Source: a virus. Taken from it: a stretch of 56,049 nucleotides of DNA. Both the position numbers and the translations under genes were made by a program. The stretch covers positions 1 through 56,049 of the IMG/VR virus record IMGVR_UViG_3300048121_000547; one strand, written 5' to 3'. The number at the start of each line of letters is the position of its first letter. The first letter of the stretch is position 1. Shown here in pieces: positions 38,383 through 51,161 of the stretch. The notes under the pieces were generated by a model, which was given only the letters and a program-made list of their open reading frames with translations, searched no databases and was not told the DNA's origin.

Positions 38383-38559
38383 ATGGATACTACAAAATGG
38401 AAAAGTGTTCTTGTACCAATTGAGGTTTACAAGGAAATTAAACTGGATTCCGCGGCCAACGGGCGTACAATAAGTGGACAGCTTAGAGTTATGTTCGATG
38501 TATATGCTAAAAACCGCGATAAGAACGTTGACACATCCCATAAAGTCGCGTATAAATGA
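38383..38559 (+). CDS. Ribbon-helix-helix-type regulator
   Basis: A 58-residue protein from ATG 38383 to TGA 38557. It has the Arc/MetJ-like layout: a strand (WKSVLVPIEV), helix 1 (YKEIKLDSAANG), a turn (RTISG) and helix 2 (QLRVMFDVYAKN). Such proteins bind DNA as dimers through the paired strand. It is alone between a promoter with a CCCATA palindrome and a strong terminator, which fits an autoregulated repressor of the neighbouring CCCATA promoters. Confidence 0.65.
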   Translation: MDTTKWKSVLVPIEVYKEIKLDSAANGRTISGQLRVMFDVYAKNRDKNVDTSHKVAYK

Positions 38560-38699: not shown

Positions 38700-39089
38700 A
38701 TGGGACTTGATATGTTTCTAATGGGTGAGAAATTCATCCCCACGCATGACAATAAACACACGCGGCCTACCGTCGATGGATACAAAGTGTCCAGCACAAT
38801 TCTCGATTTGGGACAGTGGCGCAAGCATTGGGCTCTGCATGAGTGCATCGAACAAGATTACGTTAAGTCTGGCGGGCGCATTTTGCTAGAGCCGGAGTTC
38901 CTGCTTGAAATTGCTGACGCAGTTAAGCAAGGTAATTTGCCCGAAGCAAACTATTCACCCCAAACAGACGCCTTTCACAAAGAACCGAAAGAGGTTGCAA
39001 AGACCGTAAAGATTTTTCGCGATGCTTACGATTGGGTCAACCGAGAAGACGGCTTTTGGCGCAGCGTTTATTATGAAGGAAGCTGGTAA
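38700..39089 (+). CDS. MGLDMFL-type phage protein of unknown function
   Basis: The start is ATG 38700, seven bases after GGAGAA; an in-frame ATG two codons earlier is too close to the site. The 129-residue protein begins MGLDMFLMGEKFI and has WRKHWALHECIEQDY, GGRILLEPEFLLEIADAV and a final DAYDWVNREDGFWRSVYYEG. Proteins with the MGLDM-Y/F-L start are common in phages and are often mislabelled as phosphoglycerate kinases. Their function is unknown. Confidence 0.75.
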   Translation: MGLDMFLMGEKFIPTHDNKHTRPTVDGYKVSSTILDLGQWRKHWALHECIEQDYVKSGGRILLEPEFLLEIADAVKQGNLPEANYSPQTDAFHKEPKEVAKTVKIFRDAYDWVNREDGFWRSVYYEGSW

Positions 39090-39274
39090 TGACCCTCGTC
39101 GTAACACACTGCCCCGAATGCAAAGTAAAAATGCAAGCCGTAGATAGTAGAGAGCACACGGCCTACGGCTTTCCAACCGTGCGCCGCCGCCGTGCATGTA
39201 TGAAATGCTCTTTCAGAATAACAACAATAGAGCTGCCTATCGATTTAGGTAACTCCATTTTTGAGGAAGAATAA
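39089..39274 (+). CDS. NrdR-like zinc-ribbon protein
   Basis: This 61-residue protein has CPEC (Cys8, Cys11), AVDSREH, a VRRRRAC run, CMKC (Cys37, Cys40) and FRITTIEL. That order is the zinc-ribbon of the ribonucleotide reductase repressor NrdR (CPxC..DSR..RRRR..C..CxxRFTTxE). NrdR's ATP-cone domain is absent. It overlaps both neighbours by one base. It may bind DNA at NrdR-like sites or act as a small transcription factor; the phage has no reductase gene of its own. Confidence 0.65.
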   Translation: MTLVVTHCPECKVKMQAVDSREHTAYGFPTVRRRRACMKCSFRITTIELPIDLGNSIFEEE

Positions 39275-41595: not shown

Positions 41596-41651
41596 GGTTT
41601 TGAGGGTTAGGACAACTCTCAAACGCTTTTTGACAATTTGGAGAATGTACT

Positions 41652-41882: not shown

Positions 41883-41977
41883 TGTACGGCCAAACACTAA
41901 GAGAATACGTTATGGCTATGCACCAGTTCGATATCGTCTGGATGCCTAAACATAAAGATCAAGAACCACCGTTCTGA
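41882..41977 (+). CDS. 31-residue peptide coupled to upstream gene
   Basis: A frame from ATG 41882 to TGA 41975 (MYGQTLREYVMAMHQFDIVW to KDQEPPF). The TAATG overlap with the previous gene allows translational coupling, and a terminator follows within four bases. Both favour a real, very small gene. No function can be given. Confidence 0.45.
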   Translation: MYGQTLREYVMAMHQFDIVWMPKHKDQEPPF

Positions 41978-41980
41978 AAA

Positions 41981-42010
41981 TAAGGCCCTGCGCTAAATGC
42001 GTGGGGCCTT
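41981..42010 (+). terminator. Terminator after the 41.6-42.0 kb operon
   Basis: AAGGCCC (41981-41987) pairs with GGGCCTT (42003-42009), with an inner CGC/GCG pair. The T-run is short (TTTGGTTTGG), so it may be weak. Confidence 0.65.
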
Positions 42011-42346
42011 TGGTTTGGGGAGCATGGATCGAAGAGCGGGGATCGCGGGCCGCGGAACTTAAATTACGCGGTTATAGTATATAGGCCAGAAAAAAAAAAA
42101 AAAAAAAAAACTGTTTTCAAGCCGTAACCACCGTAACTTATGTAACTTGGCATTTAACAGTATATATATAAAGAATAAATTTGGTTACATAAGTGGTTAC
42201 ACAGAGAAAGTACAAATATGTAACCAGAAAGATCGATATTGCGTTAAGGGGGGCGGGGGAAATTTTTTATAAAAAGTTTTTTCTGGCCTATATAACTGTA
42301 GCGGTTATATAAGGGATTTATCTGATAGTTAATTAATGAGGATAGC
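42011..42346. other. Non-coding block before terS: candidate origin or control region
   Basis: No gene is seen in these 336 bases. TATATAGGCCAGAAAAAA (42078-42095) and its exact complement (42277-42294) form an 18-bp inverted repeat. Between them lie a run of 21 A (42090-42110), six GTAAC/GTTAC copies (42124-42224), an alternating TATATATATA stretch (42161-42170) and a G-rich stretch (42245-42259). The right arm leads into CTGGCCTATATAACTGTAGC, a possible promoter for terS. Origin, operator or packaging functions are all possible. Confidence 0.5.
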
Positions 42347-42988
42347 ATGACCAAAGCGAAACGAGGTCGCCCTGTTAAGAAAACCAAATATGGAAGCATC
42401 CCTTCCCCACTTTTGATAAAAGAGCGCGCAGTGCCAAAACATAACAAACTGGTCGATCCTGACAGTCCCCGCAGTGACCCCCGGGGTCAGAAGAGAATGA
42501 CGGTTGATAAACGCCTGACCCGAAAGCAAGAGCTTTTTGTAAAAGAGCTTGTAAGCAATGACGGCCTGATAACTTTCAAAGAGGCTGCAATCCGCGCGGG
42601 CTATCCAGAAACATCCGCTCATACCCGAGCCTATGAATTGACCAACCCACATAAGTGTCCACATGTAGTCGCAGCTATCAAAGCTTACCGGGCCGAGCTC
42701 GACGCTAAGTTTGACATAAACTATGGCCGTCATATTAGAGACCTTCAGAAAATTCGCGATCTGGCTTTGGAAAACGGTGCTTACTCTGCCGCTGTTCAAG
42801 CTGAGTATCGGAGGGGTCAAGCCCAAGGCGACATCTATGTGAGCAAGTCAGAGATACGCCACGGCAGTATCGACAGCATGAGCAAAGAGGAAGTTCTGAA
42901 AGCGTTGAATGAATTGAAGGGCGGATATGACGAAGACGTTATCGATATTACCCCAACAGAAGATGACCAACGAAGCGGGCCTGTATAG
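42347..42988 (+). CDS. terS: Terminase small subunit
   Basis: This 213-residue protein has a basic N-terminal tail (MTKAKRGRPVKKTKYG) and then the Terminase_2-type region: LTRKQELFVKELVSND, FKEAAIRAGYPETSAHTRAY, CPHVVAAIKAYRAELDAKF. This DNA-recognition helix-turn-helix plus oligomerisation segment picks viral DNA for packaging. The C-terminus is acidic (DEDVIDITPTEDD). It lies 4.3 kb before terL instead of next to it. A GAGGATAGC ribosome site precedes the ATG. Confidence 0.8.
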   Translation: MTKAKRGRPVKKTKYGSIPSPLLIKERAVPKHNKLVDPDSPRSDPRGQKRMTVDKRLTRKQELFVKELVSNDGLITFKEAAIRAGYPETSAHTRAYELTNPHKCPHVVAAIKAYRAELDAKFDINYGRHIRDLQKIRDLALENGAYSAAVQAEYRRGQAQGDIYVSKSEIRHGSIDSMSKEEVLKALNELKGGYDEDVIDITPTEDDQRSGPV

Positions 42989-43364
42989 GCAGTTTAAGAC
43001 CGCTAACAAATCGCGTCGCAATTGGACACTGACTCGGATAGAGAACTGGGTCGGCCAAGGAATCCCGGATCTTCTGGCCTGTGATGAGAACGGTGGATTG
43101 CACTTTGTAGAGTTAAAGTTTTGTAAGGCTAACGCGGTTAATTTAAGCCCGCATCAAGTTGCGTGGCTCACAAGGCATCAAAAGAGCAGTAGTTGGGTTT
43201 TAATTAAGCAACAGGCCCGAGCAGACGTTAAGCCCACCCTGCACCTTTACAGGGCGTCTCAGGCTATATCCCTTGCAGAGGATGGTTTGAAAACTTCCGC
43301 AGCTGGTACGTTCGAACACCCTTTTGATTGGAACGCTGTTTTTCAGTTGATCTCTCCCATATAA
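42927..43364 (+). CDS. PD-(D/E)XK nuclease (VRR-NUC/Hjc-like)
   Basis: This 145-residue protein has the catalytic layout GQGIPDLLACDENGGLHF (Asp48), VELKF (Glu62, Lys64) and SPHQVAWL (Gln77), the PD-(D/E)XK fold of small phage nucleases and Holliday-junction resolvases. A second in-frame ATG at 42963 (MTNEAGLYRQF) would shorten the overlap with terS from 62 to 26 bases and may be the true start. It could trim replication intermediates before packaging. Confidence 0.7.
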   Translation: MTKTLSILPQQKMTNEAGLYRQFKTANKSRRNWTLTRIENWVGQGIPDLLACDENGGLHFVELKFCKANAVNLSPHQVAWLTRHQKSSSWVLIKQQARADVKPTLHLYRASQAISLAEDGLKTSAAGTFEHPFDWNAVFQLISPI

Positions 43365-43845: not shown

Positions 43846-43859
43846 ACTTTCTAAAGTTT

Positions 43860-43887
43860 TTGCTTGCAGTCTATGCGACAATATGCG
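43860..43887 (+). promoter_or_regulatory. Promoter of the DUF932 cassette
   Basis: TTGCTT (43860-43865), 16 bases, TATGCG (43882-43887), followed by AGAAA. The promoter at 45119 has the same TATGCGAGAAA end and a TTGTTT -35. Confidence 0.55.
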
Positions 43888-43893
43888 AGAAAG

Positions 43894-43917
43894 AGGGCGG
43901 GGCTATCCTGCCCTTTT
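43894..43917 (+). promoter_or_regulatory. Leader hairpin, possible attenuator
   Basis: AGGGCGGG (43894-43901) pairs with CCTGCCCT (43907-43914) and TTTT follows. It lies between the promoter and the GGAGAATG leader of the DUF932 gene, so it could end transcription early. Confidence 0.45.
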
Positions 43918-43937
43918 ACTTTTGGAGAATGTAAAAC

Positions 43938-45068
43938 ATGACACATAATATTGAAAACAGCAAAAACACCCTGACCGCACTTATGATGAAAGTGCAGGAC
44001 CAAGCCGCAAGATCGGCGGATTATCTGGCCCCAACAAACGATTTGCAAAAAACCACCACTTTGGATGGCAAACCCCAGATTGTTATTGAGGCCAACCGGG
44101 GTGTGCCGACAAAACGTTTTGACATAAACGATACAGCCTTTGGTCAAATCGCTACACATGCCGGGATCGACACCCGTACAGCCCGCCGTTTGCAGTCTAA
44201 TTATCCCCGGGAATTCGACAATTTGACCAACGCTATCTGGCAAAAAGAACCGACCCGCCGCATGATCCGCACCCATGCCGATGATCGGTTTGATACTGAC
44301 GGCACTGCGCGGGCTTTTGTTTCTGACAAATTCAAAACTTTTGATAACGTCAATTTGCTTGAAGCCTGCCTTCCCCAGCTGATCGATAACCCGGCACAGT
44401 TTCAAGTTGTGTCCGCCGATGTTTCAGAAAAGCGGATGTACCTACGTTTAAAATCTTTGGAGCAATTGGGCACTGGTGCTAATGTCGGCGACCACATGGC
44501 AAACGGGATTGGTTTTGGCAATTCCGAAGTCGGCGCGGGATCAGTTACTGTTTATCAAATCGCTTGGACGCTGGCTTGCTTGAACGGGATGCAAACCCAA
44601 AACAAAACCCGGTCAAGCCACATCACATCCGCCCGCGATGGCGACGATTGGGGCCTTTTGTCCGATGATGCAAAAAATGCGGACAATCGGGCTTTGGAAT
44701 TGAAGCTGCGCGATTTGGTTGGGCACTATTCAAGCCGCGAAACTTTTGACGATATATGCCAGCAAATGCGCGCCGCAGCTGCGGATGTGATCGAAGGCGA
44801 GGCCACCGATGTGACCGACGTTGTCAACAATCTGGGCCGCGTCATGCAGCTGACCAAAAAAGAAAACAGCGACGTTCTAAATGGCTTGATGGCAACAATC
44901 GGTCAGGCTGGCTATGAAAACAGCCGCCCGCTTTCCCGTGCAACACTTGTGAACGCCGTGACCGCGGTATCACACCGTGCCGATATTGATGATGTTGACA
45001 CATGGCAGCAACGCGGCGGGCAGCTGCTCAATATGTCCGCCCGCGATTGGCAGCGCGTCGCCGCCTAA
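43938..45068 (+). CDS. DUF932-family phage/plasmid-like protein
   Basis: This 376-residue protein matches the DUF932 type: KPQIVIEANRGVPTKRFDIN, FGQIATHAGIDTRTARRLQS, then YLRLKSLEQLGTGANVGDHM, GIGFGNSEVGAGSVTVYQIA, LACLNGMQTQNKTRSSHITS, with a helical C-terminal third. The family occurs on plasmids and phages and its biochemical role is unsettled. It is the first of three GC-rich cassettes with own promoter and terminator, and its codon use differs from neighbouring phage genes. Confidence 0.75.
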   Translation: MTHNIENSKNTLTALMMKVQDQAARSADYLAPTNDLQKTTTLDGKPQIVIEANRGVPTKRFDINDTAFGQIATHAGIDTRTARRLQSNYPREFDNLTNAIWQKEPTRRMIRTHADDRFDTDGTARAFVSDKFKTFDNVNLLEACLPQLIDNPAQFQVVSADVSEKRMYLRLKSLEQLGTGANVGDHMANGIGFGNSEVGAGSVTVYQIAWTLACLNGMQTQNKTRSSHITSARDGDDWGLLSDDAKNADNRALELKLRDLVGHYSSRETFDDICQQMRAAAADVIEGEATDVTDVVNNLGRVMQLTKKENSDVLNGLMATIGQAGYENSRPLSRATLVNAVTAVSHRADIDDVDTWQQRGGQLLNMSARDWQRVAA

Positions 45069-45093
45069 TCCCTGCAATATATACCGCCCAACT

Positions 45094-45120
45094 GGCCCGC
45101 CTTAGAGCGGGCCTTTTTTT
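45094..45120 (+). terminator. Terminator of the DUF932 cassette
   Basis: GGCCCGC (45094-45100) pairs with GCGGGCC (45107-45113), then seven T. Nearly the same hairpin ends the next two cassettes. Confidence 0.9.
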
Positions 45121-45146
45121 GTTTGATCTTTATAAATTTATATGCG
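45119..45146 (+). promoter_or_regulatory. Promoter of the second cassette, touching the terminator
   Basis: TTGTTT (45119-45124) begins in the T-run of the preceding terminator; after 16 bases comes TATGCG (45141-45146) with AGAA following. A leader hairpin CGGGCGG-CTA-CCGTCCG follows. Confidence 0.5.
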
Positions 45147-45203
45147 AGAAATCTTATATCGGGCGGCTACCGTCCGACAACTTTACATTTTGGAGAATGT
45201 ACC

Positions 45204-45632
45204 ATGACACACCCAATCGAAAATATGCCTATTACACGCGGCAACTTTGTTGATGCTTTGGTGGTTGATAAAGACCAAGCGCAGGCGGATTTGGCCGCTG
45301 CTCAAAAAGCGGCAATGGACCTTATCGCAGAACGTGATCGGTTGCAGGCTGAACTGGCCGACGCTAATCGTTTTAAAGAGGGCTTTGCTAATTTGTTTGC
45401 CGATCAAATCGACGCCGCTGTAAAATCCGCCATGGTCGATTATGAAAGCGATTTTGATATTAGCGTCTATGAAAGCGAAATTCAGGAAATGGCCCGCGAT
45501 GGTTTTGATGCCAGCGACCACAGCGACGATATAGCCGACGCGGTTGGCTTTGATATGTACGATTACAAGTCTGAGGTGGCCGACATTGTTAGCGATATTT
45601 TGCGCGACGCTACGGTTAAATTGGAGGTTTAA
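45204..45632 (+). CDS. Acidic coiled-coil protein of second cassette
   Basis: The start is ATG 45204, after TTTTGGAGAATGTACC. The 142-residue protein has a coiled-coil-like middle (DQAQADLAAAQKAAMDLIAE, RDRLQAELADANRF) and a very acidic second half (YESDFDISVYESEIQEMARD, then SDHSDDIADAVGFDMYDY). Its first codons (MTHPIEN) mirror MTHNIEN of the DUF932 protein, as do the leaders. The acidic character might mimic DNA or bind a basic partner, but that is speculation. Confidence 0.65.
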   Translation: MTHPIENMPITRGNFVDALVVDKDQAQADLAAAQKAAMDLIAERDRLQAELADANRFKEGFANLFADQIDAAVKSAMVDYESDFDISVYESEIQEMARDGFDASDHSDDIADAVGFDMYDYKSEVADIVSDILRDATVKLEV

Positions 45633-45634
45633 AG

Positions 45635-45829
45635 ATGCGGCTTACTAAACCACAGGCCCAAACCTTGCACCGCAAGTGGATCGACGGCCAGCACGAGCAC
45701 GGTAGCACCCGCGACATTTCTTTTCTGGCCTTTCGTCGGACTGTTGAGCCGACATACGATGAGAGCGTCATGGTCAAATGGTGCGGAATGTATATTGGGA
45801 TTGAAGCGGACGGCTACCCCCACAGCTAA
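45635..45829 (+). CDS. Small protein, second gene of the cassette
   Basis: This 64-residue protein starts two bases after the previous stop with a GGAGG ribosome site upstream. It is basic at the front (MRLTKPQAQTLHRKWIDGQH) with LAFRRTVEPTYDESVMVKWC and GMYIGIEADGYPHS at the end. Its start and terminator position show it is co-transcribed with the acidic protein. Not recognised. Confidence 0.65.
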   Translation: MRLTKPQAQTLHRKWIDGQHEHGSTRDISFLAFRRTVEPTYDESVMVKWCGMYIGIEADGYPHS

Positions 45830-45850
45830 AAACTTCTAAAAATTAAGATT

Positions 45851-45880
45851 GGCCCGCCCTATTGATTGGCGGGCCTTTTT
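45851..45880 (+). terminator. Terminator of second cassette
   Basis: GGCCCGCC (45851-45858) pairs perfectly with GGCGGGCC (45868-45875), then TTTTT. The nine-base loop contains most of the -35 box of the next promoter. Confidence 0.9.
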
Positions 45881-45891
45881 CGTTTTATAAT
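45862..45891 (+). promoter_or_regulatory. Promoter of third cassette inside the terminator
   Basis: TTGATT (45862-45867) lies in the terminator loop; after 18 bases comes a consensus TATAAT (45886-45891). TATGGG (45891-45896), the reverse of CCCATA, overlaps its end. Confidence 0.6.
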
Positions 45892-45923
45892 ATGGGATAA
45901 ACCGCATATATTGGAGAATGCAA

Positions 45924-46640
45924 ATGTTAAAGACTGTTGAAACAAGCCGCGCCCAAAAGACCAAAGGTCTGGCCGTAACCTATCGCGCCGGGTCGCAAGA
46001 GAAATTCGGCACTTGCCCGGCCAGCTGCGAATTAAACCCGTCTGGCTGTGGCGCGTCAAAGGTCGATCTGGACTATTTAAACGCGCTTTCGGATGCCGTC
46101 CCAACTAAGGGGATCGCCTTTACCTATTCCCACTTTGCGCCGATCCATTGGTTCAAGAAAAACGGGCCGGGTAAAACTGTCATAAATTACTCGTGCAAAA
46201 CTATTGCCCAAGCCGCGATTTATGTCAGCCGCAAAACCCGCGCCCTAAATGTTCCCGTTGTGGTTACTGTCGCGCTTGATTTTTGGAGCGGCCGCAAAAC
46301 TGTTGATAGTGACGGCGCGCGGTTCGTTAGATGCCCGGCCGAATATCTGCCCAAGTTTGGTTGCGCCCAATGCGGCAATGGCGACCCACTTTGCGCCCGC
46401 TTAGACCGCGATTATGTAATTGGATTTACAGCGCACGGGATCCACAAAAAGAAAGCCGCCAATCCTGACGACCCCGGCGGATGCTATGCCAGCAGCGGCC
46501 ATGTGGTCCTGCATTGGGAAGCCACGGCCGATCAAGCGCAGGATGAGAGGGACGCGGACAAGGTGACCCGGTTTGCTAAAAGCTTAGCCCCCCGCACGAT
46601 ATTGCGCCACCATATCGCCGGGGATATTGGCGACGATTAA
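45924..46640 (+). CDS. Cysteine-rich phage protein (DUF7227-like)
   Basis: The start is ATG 45924, seven bases after GGAG in the shared leader; ATG 45918 is part of the leader. The 238-residue protein has two cysteine clusters, FGTCPASCELNPSGCGASK and GCAQCGNGDPLCARLDRDYV, with VINYSCKTIAQAAIYVSRKT between. Then VIGFTAHGIHKKKA follows. It resembles a family of phage proteins I know as DUF7227, with no proven role. The cysteines suggest a metal or Fe-S site. Confidence 0.65.
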   Translation: MLKTVETSRAQKTKGLAVTYRAGSQEKFGTCPASCELNPSGCGASKVDLDYLNALSDAVPTKGIAFTYSHFAPIHWFKKNGPGKTVINYSCKTIAQAAIYVSRKTRALNVPVVVTVALDFWSGRKTVDSDGARFVRCPAEYLPKFGCAQCGNGDPLCARLDRDYVIGFTAHGIHKKKAANPDDPGGCYASSGHVVLHWEATADQAQDERDADKVTRFAKSLAPRTILRHHIAGDIGDD

Positions 46641-46668
46641 AACCGCGACCCCATCAATTGACGATCTG

Positions 46669-46691
46669 GCCCGCCATTGTGCGGGCTTTTT
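46669..46691 (+). terminator. Terminator of third cassette
   Basis: GCCCGC (46669-46674) pairs with GCGGGC (46681-46686), then TTTTT. It is the same type as at 45094 and 45851. Confidence 0.85.
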
Positions 46692-47250
46692 CGTGCCCTC
46701 TGGCCGACCTTATCGCCCGATTACCCGATCCAATCTAACGAGATCGACCACAGCGCCGGGTATTCTCTAAAATAGTTAAACAAGGCGGGCCTCGCCCCTT
46801 GCACCCCGGCCAAACGTACGGGGCGCGCGATCCGCGGGCGGACATCGATGCGCTTCCTGTCCCTTCCAGACCCGCCACCATGGTCGTTTTCATCGGCCAG
46901 CTGGCCCCGGCGCGCAGAAAATTCGTGCAGCTGCGGCTCACTTTTGCCCGTTAATATCGACCAGCTGGCCGTAATTCTTGCCCGCTGCTGACAGAAAATC
47001 GTGCGAGATAAATAGTTATCGGTCCGCGATCCGCGGTCTATCGGCCCGGGAAAATCGCCCGGGTCCCTCGGATATCGGGTCAGAAAACCATGATTTTAAA
47101 CGATAAAACGCGATCCGCGCGACGCGGCCCGGGGTTTGCCGAGACGGGGGCTAGGGCCATGTTTCTCTCAAATATTTACATAAAATTTCGTTTGGCCTAT
47201 AACTATCCTATAAAGCAGTATATTATCCCATAAATAGCTAGGGTCCCCCG
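46692..47250. other. Palindrome-rich non-coding region before terL
   Basis: No believable gene is seen here. CGATCCGCG occurs three times (46828, 47027, 47111). CCAGCTGGCC occurs at 46897 and 46961, each followed by CAGAAAAT(T)CGTGC (46915 and 46992), giving a roughly 65-80 bp imperfect direct repeat. Two CCCGGG palindromes lie around 47045-47062. The last 90 bases turn AT-rich (AAATATTTACATAAAATTTC) with TTGGCCTATA at 47192 and CCCATA at 47227. It is GC-rich elsewhere. It is a candidate replication origin or packaging site. Confidence 0.5.
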
Positions 47251-48714
47251 ATGAATGTTAACCTAAATCCGATCCAACAAGAGAAGGCCCTGAAGCTTCA
47301 ATTGAGGCTCGCCCAAATCGCCAAGAACGAGGGTTGTCAGGAAAACTTTTTGGACTTTGTTAGGTCCCAGTGGCCGGAGTTTATTGCTGGTAGGCATCAT
47401 AAAATAATTGCGGACAAGCTTGAGCGGGTCGCGAGCGGCGAACTAAAGCGTTTGATTATCAACATGGCTCCGCGGCACACGAAGAGTGAGTTTGCTTCGT
47501 TTTTGTTTCCTGCTTGGATGATGGGCAAGAACCCGAGTATGAAGATTATTCAGGCGACTCACACGACGGAGTTGGCTGTTAACTTTGGTCGGAAGACTAA
47601 GAACCTTTTGGACATGGACAGTTACAAGGAGGTTTTCCCTGACGTTAAGTTGGCTGCGGACAGTAAGGCGAGTGGTCGTTGGGACACGAGTGCTGGTGGT
47701 ATGTATTATGCTGTTGGTGTTGGTTCGAATTTGGCTGGTCGTGGTGGTGATTTAATTATCATTGACGACCCTCATTCTGAGCAGACGGCGATGAGTGCTC
47801 ATGGTTTTGAGGATGCTTGGGATTGGTATACTGGTGGTCCTCGGCAGCGTTTACAGCCGGGTGGTTCTATAGTTTTGGTACAGACTCGTTGGTCAGAGAA
47901 GGACATGACGGGTCAGTTATTGCGAGCGATGGCGAAGGACCCTTTATCGGATCAGTGGGAGGTTGTTGAGTTACCTGCTATTTTTGAGGATGAGACTCCT
48001 TGTTGGCCTGAGTACTGGAGTTTAGAGGATTTAACCGCGGTCCGCGCATCTATACCTCCGAGCAAGTGGAATGCTCAGTATCAGCAGAATCCTACTGGTG
48101 AGGAGAATGCGATCATTCCTCGGGAGTGGTGGCGTCGTTGGGACCGTGAGGTTGTTCCTCAGTTAGAGTATGTGATTCAGAGTTATGACACTGCGTTTAG
48201 CAAGCGTGAGACGAGTGACTTTAGTGCTATTACGACGTGGGGTGTATTTTATCCGAACGAGGGTGGTTCGGGTCCTAATTTAATATTGTTGGACAGTAAG
48301 AAGGGTCGCTGGGATTTTCCAGAATTAAAGTCTATAGCGTTTGAGGAGTATAAGTTTTGGGACCCCGACACTGTAATTATTGAGGCGAAGGCGAGTGGTT
48401 TACCTTTGACTCACGAGCTTCGCAATGTTGGTATACCTGTTGTAAATTTCACGCCTAGTCGTGGTAATGACAAGGTTAGCCGGGTACATGCCATTAGTCC
48501 TATGTTAGAGTCTGGCATGGTTTGGGCTCCTGACAAGCCTTGGGCTGATGAGTTAATTGAGGAGGTTGCGGCGTTTCCGAACGGCGAGCATGACGATTTG
48601 GTTGACAGCATGACCCAAGCTCTGATGAGGTATCGTCAGGGTAATTTTGTCCAGTTACCAACAGATGATTGGCAAAACGAAGAAGAATCTGTTAAGGTGC
48701 GGGCATATTATTGA
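47251..48714 (+). CDS. terL: Terminase large subunit
   Basis: This 487-residue packaging motor has an ATPase domain with a Walker-A-like MAPRHTKSE (72-80), Walker B DLIIIDDPHS (Asp172, Asp173) and VQTRWSEKDMTG (motif III). The RNase H-like nuclease shows SYDTAFSK (Asp313), VIIEAKASG (Glu378) and GEHDDLVDS (Asp448, Asp449). The ribosome site is weak (AGGG, then CCCCCG). It is followed two bases before the portal's ribosome site. Together with the headful-type portal it suggests pac-type packaging, which is inference. Confidence 0.92.
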   Translation: MNVNLNPIQQEKALKLQLRLAQIAKNEGCQENFLDFVRSQWPEFIAGRHHKIIADKLERVASGELKRLIINMAPRHTKSEFASFLFPAWMMGKNPSMKIIQATHTTELAVNFGRKTKNLLDMDSYKEVFPDVKLAADSKASGRWDTSAGGMYYAVGVGSNLAGRGGDLIIIDDPHSEQTAMSAHGFEDAWDWYTGGPRQRLQPGGSIVLVQTRWSEKDMTGQLLRAMAKDPLSDQWEVVELPAIFEDETPCWPEYWSLEDLTAVRASIPPSKWNAQYQQNPTGEENAIIPREWWRRWDREVVPQLEYVIQSYDTAFSKRETSDFSAITTWGVFYPNEGGSGPNLILLDSKKGRWDFPELKSIAFEEYKFWDPDTVIIEAKASGLPLTHELRNVGIPVVNFTPSRGNDKVSRVHAISPMLESGMVWAPDKPWADELIEEVAAFPNGEHDDLVDSMTQALMRYRQGNFVQLPTDDWQNEEESVKVRAYY

Positions 48715-48725
48715 CGGAGGGCCTT

Positions 48726-51161
48726 ATGGCTATTGGCGGATTGATGGATACGACTAACGTTCCGAGTCAGTTAGACGAGGAAGATTTACGCGCAGAAGTT
48801 GAGTTAGAGGTTCCGGATTCTGGTGCTGACCCTTATTTGATGTCTTCTGACGTAGGTTCTGATGGTCTTGAGATTGAGATCATTGAGGAGGACAACGGCG
48901 ACGTTACCGTTGATTTTGACCCGAGTGCGTCTTTTGATGACATGGAGGGCGGTTTTAGCGATAACTTGGCGGAGTACTTGTCGGATTATGAGCTTTCTCG
49001 CATTTCCAGTGATTTATCTAGCGAGTTTGACAGTAACAAGGCGTCTCGTCAGGAGTGGGAAGATACTTATTCCAATGGCTTAGAGTTGTTAGGATTCAGT
49101 TATTCGGAGCGCAGTCAGCCGTTTCGTGGTGCAAGCGGCGTTACGCATCCTTTGTTAGCGGAGGCTGCGACTCAGTTTCAGGCTCAAGCGTTTAATGAGT
49201 TATTGCCTTCTTCGGGTCCCGTCCGGACGGCTATTATGGGTGAAGAGAACCGTGAAAAGGCGTCTCAAGCGCAGCGTGTTCGTCAGTTTATGAATTATTA
49301 TCTGACTAATGTTATGGAGGATTACACTCCTGACATGGATCAGATGCTGTTTTATTTACCGCTGGCGGGGAGTACGTTTAAAAAGGTTTACTTTGACGAG
49401 GCTCTGGGCCGGATTGTTAGTAAGTTTGTGCCTGCGGAGCAGTTAGTTGTTCCTTATGAGACTTCTGACTTGGACACTTGTCCTAATATCACGCAGGTTG
49501 TCCGCATGGGTTTGAACGATTTGCGCAAGATGCAGGTCGGCGGCTTTTATTTAGACATTCCTGTGACTCCGGTTCAACAAGATTTGGACTCTGTAGAGAC
49601 TGAAATGGACCGTATTAACGGCATGGAGAGCTCTCAGATCGATTATGACTGCACTTTGTTAGAGTGTCATGTTGATTTGGACTTAGAGGGTTACGAGGAC
49701 CGCGATGAAGAGGGCGAGCCTACTGGTATTAAGTTGCCTTACATTGTTACGATTTCTCAGGACAACGGTCAGGTGTTGTCTGTCCGCCGCAATTATTTAG
49801 AGGATGATGAGCAGCGTAAGAAGATACAGTATTTTGTTCATTACAAGTTTTTGCCGGGGTTTGGTTTTTACGGTCTTGGCTTGATTCATACTATTGGTGG
49901 TTTGTCGCGCACAGCTACATCTTCGCTTCGTCAATTGATTGACGCTGGTACGTTGTCGAATCTTCCTGCGGGTTTCAAGGCCCGCGGCCTGCGGATCAGG
50001 GACGACGATGAGCCTTTACAGCCGGGTGAGTTTAGGGATGTTGACGCTCCGGGCGGTGCTATTCGTGACAGTTTGATGCCGTTGCCTTTCAAGGGACCGG
50101 ATCAGACGTTGTTTCAGTTGTTGGGTTTTGTTGTTCAGGCTGGTCAGCGGTTTGCGACTATTACTGATATGAAGGTTGGCGACGGCAATCAGGGCGCGGC
50201 CGTCGGAACTACTATAGCGATGTTGGAGCAGGGTTCTCGTGTTATGAGTGCTGTTCACAAGCGGCTTCATTATGCGATGCGTCAGGAGTTCAAGATTTTG
50301 GCTCGTGTTATGAGCGAGACTTTACCTCAAGAGTATCCTTATAGCATTGAGGGTGCGGATCAGTCGGTTATGGCAACGGACTTTGATGACCGTGTGGACG
50401 TTATTCCTGTTTCGAACCCGAATGCTTTCAGTCAGTCTCAGCGTATTTTGTTGGCTCAGACGAAGTTGCAGTTAGCTACTCAGGCTCCTGAGATGCACAA
50501 CATGCACGAGGTTTTCCGTGACATGTATGAGGCTTTAGGTGTTACGGATGTGGATCGTTTAATGAAGTCGGTTCCTGACGAGGATTCGATTCCTTTGGAC
50601 CCTGCGCAGGAAAACATCAACGCTTTGGACAACATGAAGCTGGAAGCGTTTCCGGGTCAGAATCACCAAGCGCACATCATGGCTCACTTGGTATTTGGCG
50701 CGAGTCCGATGGTTGGTCAGTTACCTCCTGTTGCTTTGTCTATGCAGAAGCACATTATGGAGCACGTTAAGATTGGTGCGGAAGAGCAGGCTATGTCTCA
50801 GATGCAGCAAGCTGGACCGCTGCCCGCGGATCAGCAAGAGATGCAGTATCAGATGATGGTTGCACAGTTTGTTGCGGAGGGTATGCAACAGGTCAAGCAG
50901 CTTTCTGGACAAGTCTCTGGTCAGGGTCCCGATCCTTTGCTACAGTTGAAAGAGAAAGAGTTGGAGATAAAGGCTCAGTCCGAGCAGGCGGATTCTCAGT
51001 TAGATCAAGCGAAGTTGCAGCTTGACGCTCAGAACCAGCAGATGCGGGCCGAGCAGTTCCAGCAGCGTCTGGCAAGTCAAGAGAATCAGACGGACAAACG
51101 GATTGAGAGTGCTATGCAACGCGAGTTGTTAAAACAGAGAGGACAGAACAATGGCGGGTAA
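48726..51161 (+). CDS. Portal protein (P22-like)
   Basis: The start is ATG 48726, five bases after GGAGG; the in-frame TTG at 48711 has no site. The 811-residue protein has an acidic N-terminal 85 residues, then P22-type portal segments: FSYSERSQPFRGASGVTHPL, RQFMNYYLTNVMEDYTPDMD, KKVYFDEALGRIVSKFVPAE, FVHYKFLPGFGFYGLGLIHT and a helical barrel-like C-terminus with long Gln-rich coils. P22 gp1 is about 725 residues. It forms the dodecameric DNA entry vertex. Confidence 0.88.
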   Translation: MAIGGLMDTTNVPSQLDEEDLRAEVELEVPDSGADPYLMSSDVGSDGLEIEIIEEDNGDVTVDFDPSASFDDMEGGFSDNLAEYLSDYELSRISSDLSSEFDSNKASRQEWEDTYSNGLELLGFSYSERSQPFRGASGVTHPLLAEAATQFQAQAFNELLPSSGPVRTAIMGEENREKASQAQRVRQFMNYYLTNVMEDYTPDMDQMLFYLPLAGSTFKKVYFDEALGRIVSKFVPAEQLVVPYETSDLDTCPNITQVVRMGLNDLRKMQVGGFYLDIPVTPVQQDLDSVETEMDRINGMESSQIDYDCTLLECHVDLDLEGYEDRDEEGEPTGIKLPYIVTISQDNGQVLSVRRNYLEDDEQRKKIQYFVHYKFLPGFGFYGLGLIHTIGGLSRTATSSLRQLIDAGTLSNLPAGFKARGLRIRDDDEPLQPGEFRDVDAPGGAIRDSLMPLPFKGPDQTLFQLLGFVVQAGQRFATITDMKVGDGNQGAAVGTTIAMLEQGSRVMSAVHKRLHYAMRQEFKILARVMSETLPQEYPYSIEGADQSVMATDFDDRVDVIPVSNPNAFSQSQRILLAQTKLQLATQAPEMHNMHEVFRDMYEALGVTDVDRLMKSVPDEDSIPLDPAQENINALDNMKLEAFPGQNHQAHIMAHLVFGASPMVGQLPPVALSMQKHIMEHVKIGAEEQAMSQMQQAGPLPADQQEMQYQMMVAQFVAEGMQQVKQLSGQVSGQGPDPLLQLKEKELEIKAQSEQADSQLDQAKLQLDAQNQQMRAEQFQQRLASQENQTDKRIESAMQRELLKQRGQNNGG

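Follow-up and report, generated by a model that had tools for sequence, protein, structure and literature searches.

Pelagiphages of the HTVC023P type and phage DSL-LC04 carry terS, an accessory interval of 3–5 kb, terL, portal and capsid genes in this order, and the same arrangement is present in the virus record analysed here, IMGVR_UViG_3300048121_000547 of IMG/VR (56,049 bases, referred to as a whole as the window), whose interval contains three gene cassettes in a row (43846-46691). In the pelagiphages the interval is filled by other genes and sites of the form TATGSGATA, a motif found in every cassette promoter of the window, are almost absent, whereas DSL-LC04 resembles the window in having a DUF7227 protein and a TIGR03299 protein near each other before terL but contains none of these sites. 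Phage morons, which lie between phage genes that would otherwise adjoin, are, like the cassettes, single- or two-gene units with a promoter and a terminator; unlike the sporadic morons, the cassettes are group-wide, reordered rather than gained, and share one promoter motif. As for the proteins, A932 of the first cassette is a distant member of the phage–plasmid family DUF932 (PF06067)/TIGR03299 (PHROG 1362 and 1221), other lineages of which take its place at the same locus, and C7227 of the third cassette has the Cys pattern of DUF7227 (PF23872; PHROG 2554), its best Pfam stretch covering profile positions 91–218 of 223. A literature search yielded no papers on DUF7227 and nothing functional on DUF932. 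The Arc and Mnt repressors of phage P22 are small ribbon-helix-helix (RHH) proteins like RHH58 of the window, whose orthologues match the RHH_5 and Arc models; in contrast to P22, no integrase was seen in the window phage, and the TATGSGATA site is proposed from conservation only. We propose, with a probability of roughly 0.55, that the interval is a conserved locus whose self-insulated transcription units are interchangeable and controlled by a single phage regulator.

The record represents a virus map that is complete or nearly so, its terminal 140 bases being a copy of its first 140 with one difference. It encodes terminase, portal, capsid, DNA polymerase, primase and helicase, arranged as replication genes, small genes, terS, the interval, terL, portal and capsid; because of this gene set and order the window is placed near the HTVC023P-type pelagiphages and DSL-LC04, with which its TerL shares 54–62% identity. 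At the DNA level, matches among isolated phages were confined to terL, and the G+C content of the window (~48%) would argue against SAR11 as the host.

Anatomy of the cassettes

Sequence analysis confirmed the anatomy given in the preliminary description, in which each of the three cassettes has a promoter-like site of its own, a TTGGAGAATG leader and a terminator of the GGCCCGCC type. The features are as follows.

43864-43892, + strand: promoter-like site of cassette 1, TTGCAG - 17 - GAGAAA
43894-43914, + strand: hairpin followed by a T-run in the A932 5' leader, between promoter and ribosome-binding site (RBS), from folding
43922-43931, + strand: ribosome-binding leader of cassette 1, exact copy of TTGGAGAATG
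43938-45068, + strand: A932, DUF932-superfamily protein of 376 aa (phrog_1362, E=1.4e-26)
45094-45113, + strand: intrinsic terminator of cassette 1, from sequence
45123-45151, + strand: promoter-like site of cassette 2, TTGATC - 17 - GAGAAA, with TATGCGAGAA at 45141
45160-45176, + strand: leader hairpin of cassette 2, from folding
45184-45201, + strand: RBS hairpin TACATT-TTGGAG-AATGTA of cassette 2, from pairing analysis
45204-45632, + strand: Bcc, acidic, fast-evolving protein of 142 aa (isoelectric point (pI) 4.05; relatives 25–90% identical)
45635-45829, + strand: open reading frame (ORF) of 64 aa, predicted to share a transcript with Bcc in the nearest relatives
45851-45875, + strand: terminator of cassette 2, fused to the next promoter, with the -35 TTGATT (45862) in its loop
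45862-45909, + strand: promoter of cassette 3, TTGATT-N18-TATAAT (10/12), then the operator-like inverted repeat ATATGGGATAAACCGCATAT
45911-45920, + strand: leader of cassette 3, exact copy of TTGGAGAATG
45924-46640, + strand: C7227, Cys-rich DUF7227 protein of 238 aa (PF23872, E=1.6e-28)
46668-46687, + strand: terminator of cassette 3, from sequence

The pattern GGCCCGCC-N4-6-GCGGGC occurred twice against 0.00 copies expected by chance, and the copy at 45851 is an additional one with a longer loop. Exact copies of TTGGAGAATG numbered five in the window against 0.1 expected, four of them directly before a + strand gene; one lies ahead of each cassette (43922, 45190 and 45911) and another at 41638. 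The start of C7227 was set at 45924 after its relatives; another in-frame ATG lies at 45918. In the promoter-like site of cassette 1, two TATGCGA copies (43872 and 43882) stand in tandem at a distance of 10 bp in the spacer and -10, and an arrangement of TTGCA or TTGAC, N17 and a -10 with TATGNGA also precedes A932 in relatives (67–100% protein identity).

The promoters had been described as touching or lying inside the preceding terminator, and such contacts were found at both seams: the -35 at 45862 is inside the terminator of cassette 2, and the site placed at 45119 begins at about 45123, a few bases past the T-run of the terminator of cassette 1. Of 41 distinct relatives, 25 have the -35 hexamer of C7227 within the upstream terminator, in its loop or 3' arm; for Bcc, the -35 was at most 12 nt past a terminator in 15 of 17 distinct relatives. 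At the fused seam upstream of C7227 the stems differ between relatives and the hexamer (TTGAC, TTTACA or TTGATT) is kept. Judged from their sequence, the cassette boundaries are thus conserved devices, and the earlier view of the cassettes as self-contained gains support from a design that is kept in relatives.

Folding of 60 A932 leaders revealed a GC hairpin downstream of the presumed transcription start, with a mean z of -2.5 and 37 leaders at z < -2, and a stem sequence strongly divergent among relatives; Bcc leaders had a similarly placed GC hairpin (mean z -2.0). Together with its T-run, the A932 leader hairpin might act as attenuator or as stabiliser. The RBS lies within a small hairpin in many leaders. 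In C7227 and Bcc leaders, though not in those of A932, this hairpin pairs better than shuffled partners do, so the RBS hairpin in the cassette leaders is suggestive only. Rfam returned Trp_leader matches at the terminators, all below threshold, which were judged to be chance.

Conservation and exchange of the cassettes

Analysis of a first set of loci, fetched with A932 or C7227, placed both genes between the VRR-type nuclease/terS and terL in almost all relatives, in either order, with 67–100% (A932) and about 50–97% (C7227) identity. This way of fetching is biased and overstated the presence of A932; therefore a second set was fetched by TerL alone, in which 15 loci span the interval from terS/VRR-nuclease to terL (4.1 kb; standard deviation (sd) 0.7). 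A DUF932-superfamily protein was present in 14 of these 15 loci, DUF7227 in 12 and both in 11, and loci without A932 usually had another DUF932 lineage in its place. By sequence, DUF932-type and DUF7227 genes are a standard feature of this interval in the phage group, unlike the acidic cassette, which is common but patchy. Two relatives with no DUF7227 match contain a phrog_11344 protein in the same interval (L128:5031-5855 and L183:6816-7538).

Both cassette orders are present in close relatives; L062 differs in order from L076, L081 and L082 within one clade of 99% support. A TerL tree with 61 rows implies a minimum of 14 changes in cassette order and of 7 in DUF932 lineage. Because the cassettes vary in order and in DUF932 lineage, and the acidic gene varies as well, modular exchange at the locus is real.

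These distributions bear on whether the cassettes are classic morons, that is, independently acquired and autonomously expressed genes that help against host defence or in host takeover. Consistent with such an origin, the cassettes appear to have their own promoters and terminators, their order and the third unit vary, and DUF932 genes also occur on plasmids. A sporadic presence between conserved neighbours was found for the acidic cassette alone; the other two are near-universal in the group and occupy one locus. The description of the cassettes as added one after another was not borne out (DUF932 superfamily in 14 of 15 loci, DUF7227 in 12 of 15), and stepwise gain was rejected on the conservation in TerL-fetched loci. 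Because two of the cassettes are conserved at one locus and both orders occur in close relatives, the moron explanation fails the test set for it and that of exchangeable cassettes gains.

Composition was examined as a further indication. Genes of the window have a mean G+C content of 47.3% (sd 3.6); A932 has 51.7%, Bcc 47.6%, the 64-aa ORF 54.9% and C7227 55.0%, an excess of 0 to 8 points with one gene showing almost none. G+C at third codon positions (GC3) of the primase and helicase genes is similar to that of the cassette genes, and the noncoding stretch 46690-47140 accounts for a large part of the local G+C peak. Of the claim that the cassettes are richer in G+C, a mild excess in three of four genes stands; in codon usage terL and portal deviate far more. 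Composition was set aside as too weak a sign of foreign origin. Of the two observations that the preliminary description had named as speaking against its own proposal, group-wide conservation was largely found for two of the three cassettes, and composition is only mildly different from that of the flanks rather than uniform. With no match to the PADLOC-DB defence library, no plasmid match for DUF7227 and an unexceptional composition also counting against it, a classic moron origin is very doubtful.

As a separate observation, terL and portal (47251-51161) are strong outliers in codon usage, with z values of 22.5 and 31.7, and a jump in GC skew lies at 47 kb.

Proteins encoded by the cassettes

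The label of the first protein as DUF932 holds by homology: in tblastn searches A932 was 30% identical (E=1e-35) to plasmid proteins annotated as DUF932, which places it in the superfamily, and it has more than 400 relatives in IMG/VR. The PF06067 profile does not call A932 directly; it matched 19 of 31 relatives, with a best E of 0.0039, below cut-off. C7227 scored 100.3 bits against PF23872 (cut-off 27) and is thereby a DUF7227 member; as had been noted, it is Cys-rich, with 9 Cys, of which Cys 31, 35, 137, 147, 150, 157 and 187 are invariant in 32 relatives, a pattern that would fit metal binding. The protein of the second cassette was likewise correctly described as acidic. A search for these genes on plasmids, proposed earlier as a check, gave only distant DUF932 matches for A932 (24–31% identity) and no match for C7227.

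The role proposed earlier for the set in defence or counter-defence gained no support, and nothing contradicted it: a search of PADLOC-DB with the cassette proteins gave no match to known anti-phage defence components. One alternative is that the set comprises inhibitors of host defence which the whole group requires, and that the swaps of DUF932 lineage reflect an arms race. The seven lineage changes are in line with this, and the fast-evolving, acidic Bcc recalls DNA-mimic inhibitors, by resemblance only. Since A932 and C7227 are slow-evolving in the group, with more than 60 invariant residues each in the alignments, and no defence-library match was obtained, we consider this alternative unlikely.

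Another alternative is that A932 is a single-stranded DNA (ssDNA) binding or annealing protein acting with the VRR-type nuclease, and that the locus is a module for recombination or preparation of packaging. The VRR nuclease and terminase are its constant neighbours, DUF932 relatives adjoin toprim-domain primase genes on two plasmids bearing conjugation genes, and in pelagiphage HTVC112P a DUF932 relative lies a few genes ahead of a nuclease gene. Searches of the PDB by sequence and by fold with A932 and C7227 gave nothing significant. The model of A932 has a predicted local distance difference test score (pLDDT) of 76 and that of C7227 is mediocre (pLDDT 70); the best fold matches of A932 had E>=0.03 and included OB-fold proteins, among them weak, model-based matches to RMI1 and RPA (E about 0.05 to 0.2) with low template modelling scores (TM-scores; 0.14–0.18 on the query). 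As these matches do not identify an ssDNA-binding or annealing protein, and known annealing proteins were not matched by sequence either, this alternative appears rather unlikely. Because of the company of the genes alone (VRR nuclease and terminase here, toprim-domain primase genes on the two plasmids), our first guess, ahead of counter-defence, is that DUF932 and DUF7227 proteins may act in phage DNA transactions.

Two Cys-rich proteins of the same interval in pelagiphages, HTVC027P gp33 (L092:4211-4810, - strand) and HTVC023P gp26 (L094:6006-6704), look DUF7227-like by eye. Comparison by hhalign of the C7227 and A932 alignments with the DUF932 protein of DSL-LC04 and with these Cys-rich proteins was negative, so this likeness is a mere lead.

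A shared promoter motif and a candidate regulator

A TATGSGATA-like site is present in every cassette promoter, and all seven copies of TATGNGANAA in the window are intergenic, where intergenic bases make up 6.6%. The motif was picked after inspection of the window; therefore an independent test over ~85 loci matters. In this test TAT[CG]3ATA was 14-fold enriched in intergenic DNA, and TAT[CG]2ATA and TAT[CG]4ATA were not enriched.

The motif might instead be an extended -10 element of the alphaproteobacterial host RNA polymerase, with RHH58 unrelated to the cassettes. TATGNGA upstream of the genes was mainly in the sense orientation near the -10 (53 sense and 9 antisense copies for A932, 47 and 3 for C7227), and TGNGANAA resembles an extended -10. 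Against this, antisense copies lie within the -35/-10 spacer in some relatives and in the window (38651 and 41573), the motif of cassette 3 comes after a perfect TATAAT, and TAT-SSS-ATA is a near-palindrome whose exact spacing is kept. The motif is also absent from related phages that lack RHH58, as neither an RHH58 match nor TATGSGATA was found in the whole of DSL-LC04 or in the examined half of HTVC027P. We regard an extended -10 element as a serious contender that falls somewhat short of even odds; the near-palindrome, fixed spacing, 10-bp tandem copies and antisense spacer copies would fit an operator better.

The best candidate for a protein binding these sites appears to be RHH58.

38383-38559, + strand: RHH58, Arc/Mnt-type ribbon-helix-helix protein of 58 aa, directly after the DNA polymerase gene

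RHH58 is present in every A932-fetched locus that extends over the region searched for it, downstream of DNA polymerase (14 locus entries), and occurs in more than 500 virus stretches. Its orthologues in L046 and L085 scored 26.4 bits and pass the RHH_5 cut-off of 26, which identifies an RHH domain, and that in L089 also matched Arc; the match to solved structures was to Mnt only (E=1).

Other features of the window

Several features outside the cassettes were recorded.

39089-39274: free-standing NrdR-type zinc ribbon of 61 aa (PF22811, E=4.1e-9, above cut-off)
41883-42346: intergenic stretch in which GGTTACA/GTAACTT words recur, with a long inverted repeat, TATATAGGCCAGAAAA ... TTTTCTGGCCTATATA
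42347-43364: terS and VRR-NUC-like nuclease genes, with a 62-base overlap read in different frames
46690-47250: noncoding DNA rich in G+C, upstream of terL

The words at 41883-42346 are enriched in intergenic DNA of relatives as well, and this stretch is a candidate replication origin. The overlapping pair of terS and nuclease genes is kept in relatives. The stretch before terL is kept in ten close relatives, with indels that ignore codons and a nearly invariant final 190 bases; it gave no Rfam match and is possibly a packaging site, an origin or a leader.

Model and implications

Anatomy, conservation, reordering, motif enrichment and conservation of the RHH protein were computed, and the following model is built on them. 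The interval from terS/VRR-nuclease to terL would consist of self-insulated units of one or two genes, each with a presumed sigma-70 type promoter of the host at its start, in contact with the previous terminator or overlapping it; given this arrangement, any unit could be moved or replaced with no disturbance of its neighbours. The units encoding the DUF932-superfamily protein and DUF7227, with its metal-site-like Cys pattern, would be needed by nearly all members, and the acidic third unit would be a common, fast-evolving addition. RHH58 probably binds the TATGSGATA-like sites and may shut the units off jointly.

Several observations weigh against this model of insulated units under one regulator. 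The match of the window RHH58 to PF07878 (E=0.012) is below the Pfam cut-off, and the promoter of RHH58 itself has clear motif copies in near relatives only. The window A932, too, has no Pfam call above cut-off. TATGNGA is mostly on the sense strand at the -10, as an extended -10 element would give. In the TerL tree 28 of 58 inner branches are open, and recombination or import may account for some of the counted order changes.

A more far-reaching form of the model, in which the locus is dedicated to plug-in cassettes of essential genes, insulated by terminator–promoter seams that are perhaps also recombination seams, and with a shared operator and RBS-hairpin leaders under one RHH repressor, is offered tentatively and well below even odds. 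If true, it would allow gene order and gene variants to be exchanged with no loss of regulation.

The locus is ordinary in its parts and unusual in its design. What had been described as three morons becomes a testable rule, the exchange of genes with no loss of control in a common marine virus group. DUF932 and DUF7227 gain a conserved place in the genome, next to nuclease and terminase genes, and RHH58 and TATGSGATA form a predicted regulator–operator pair.

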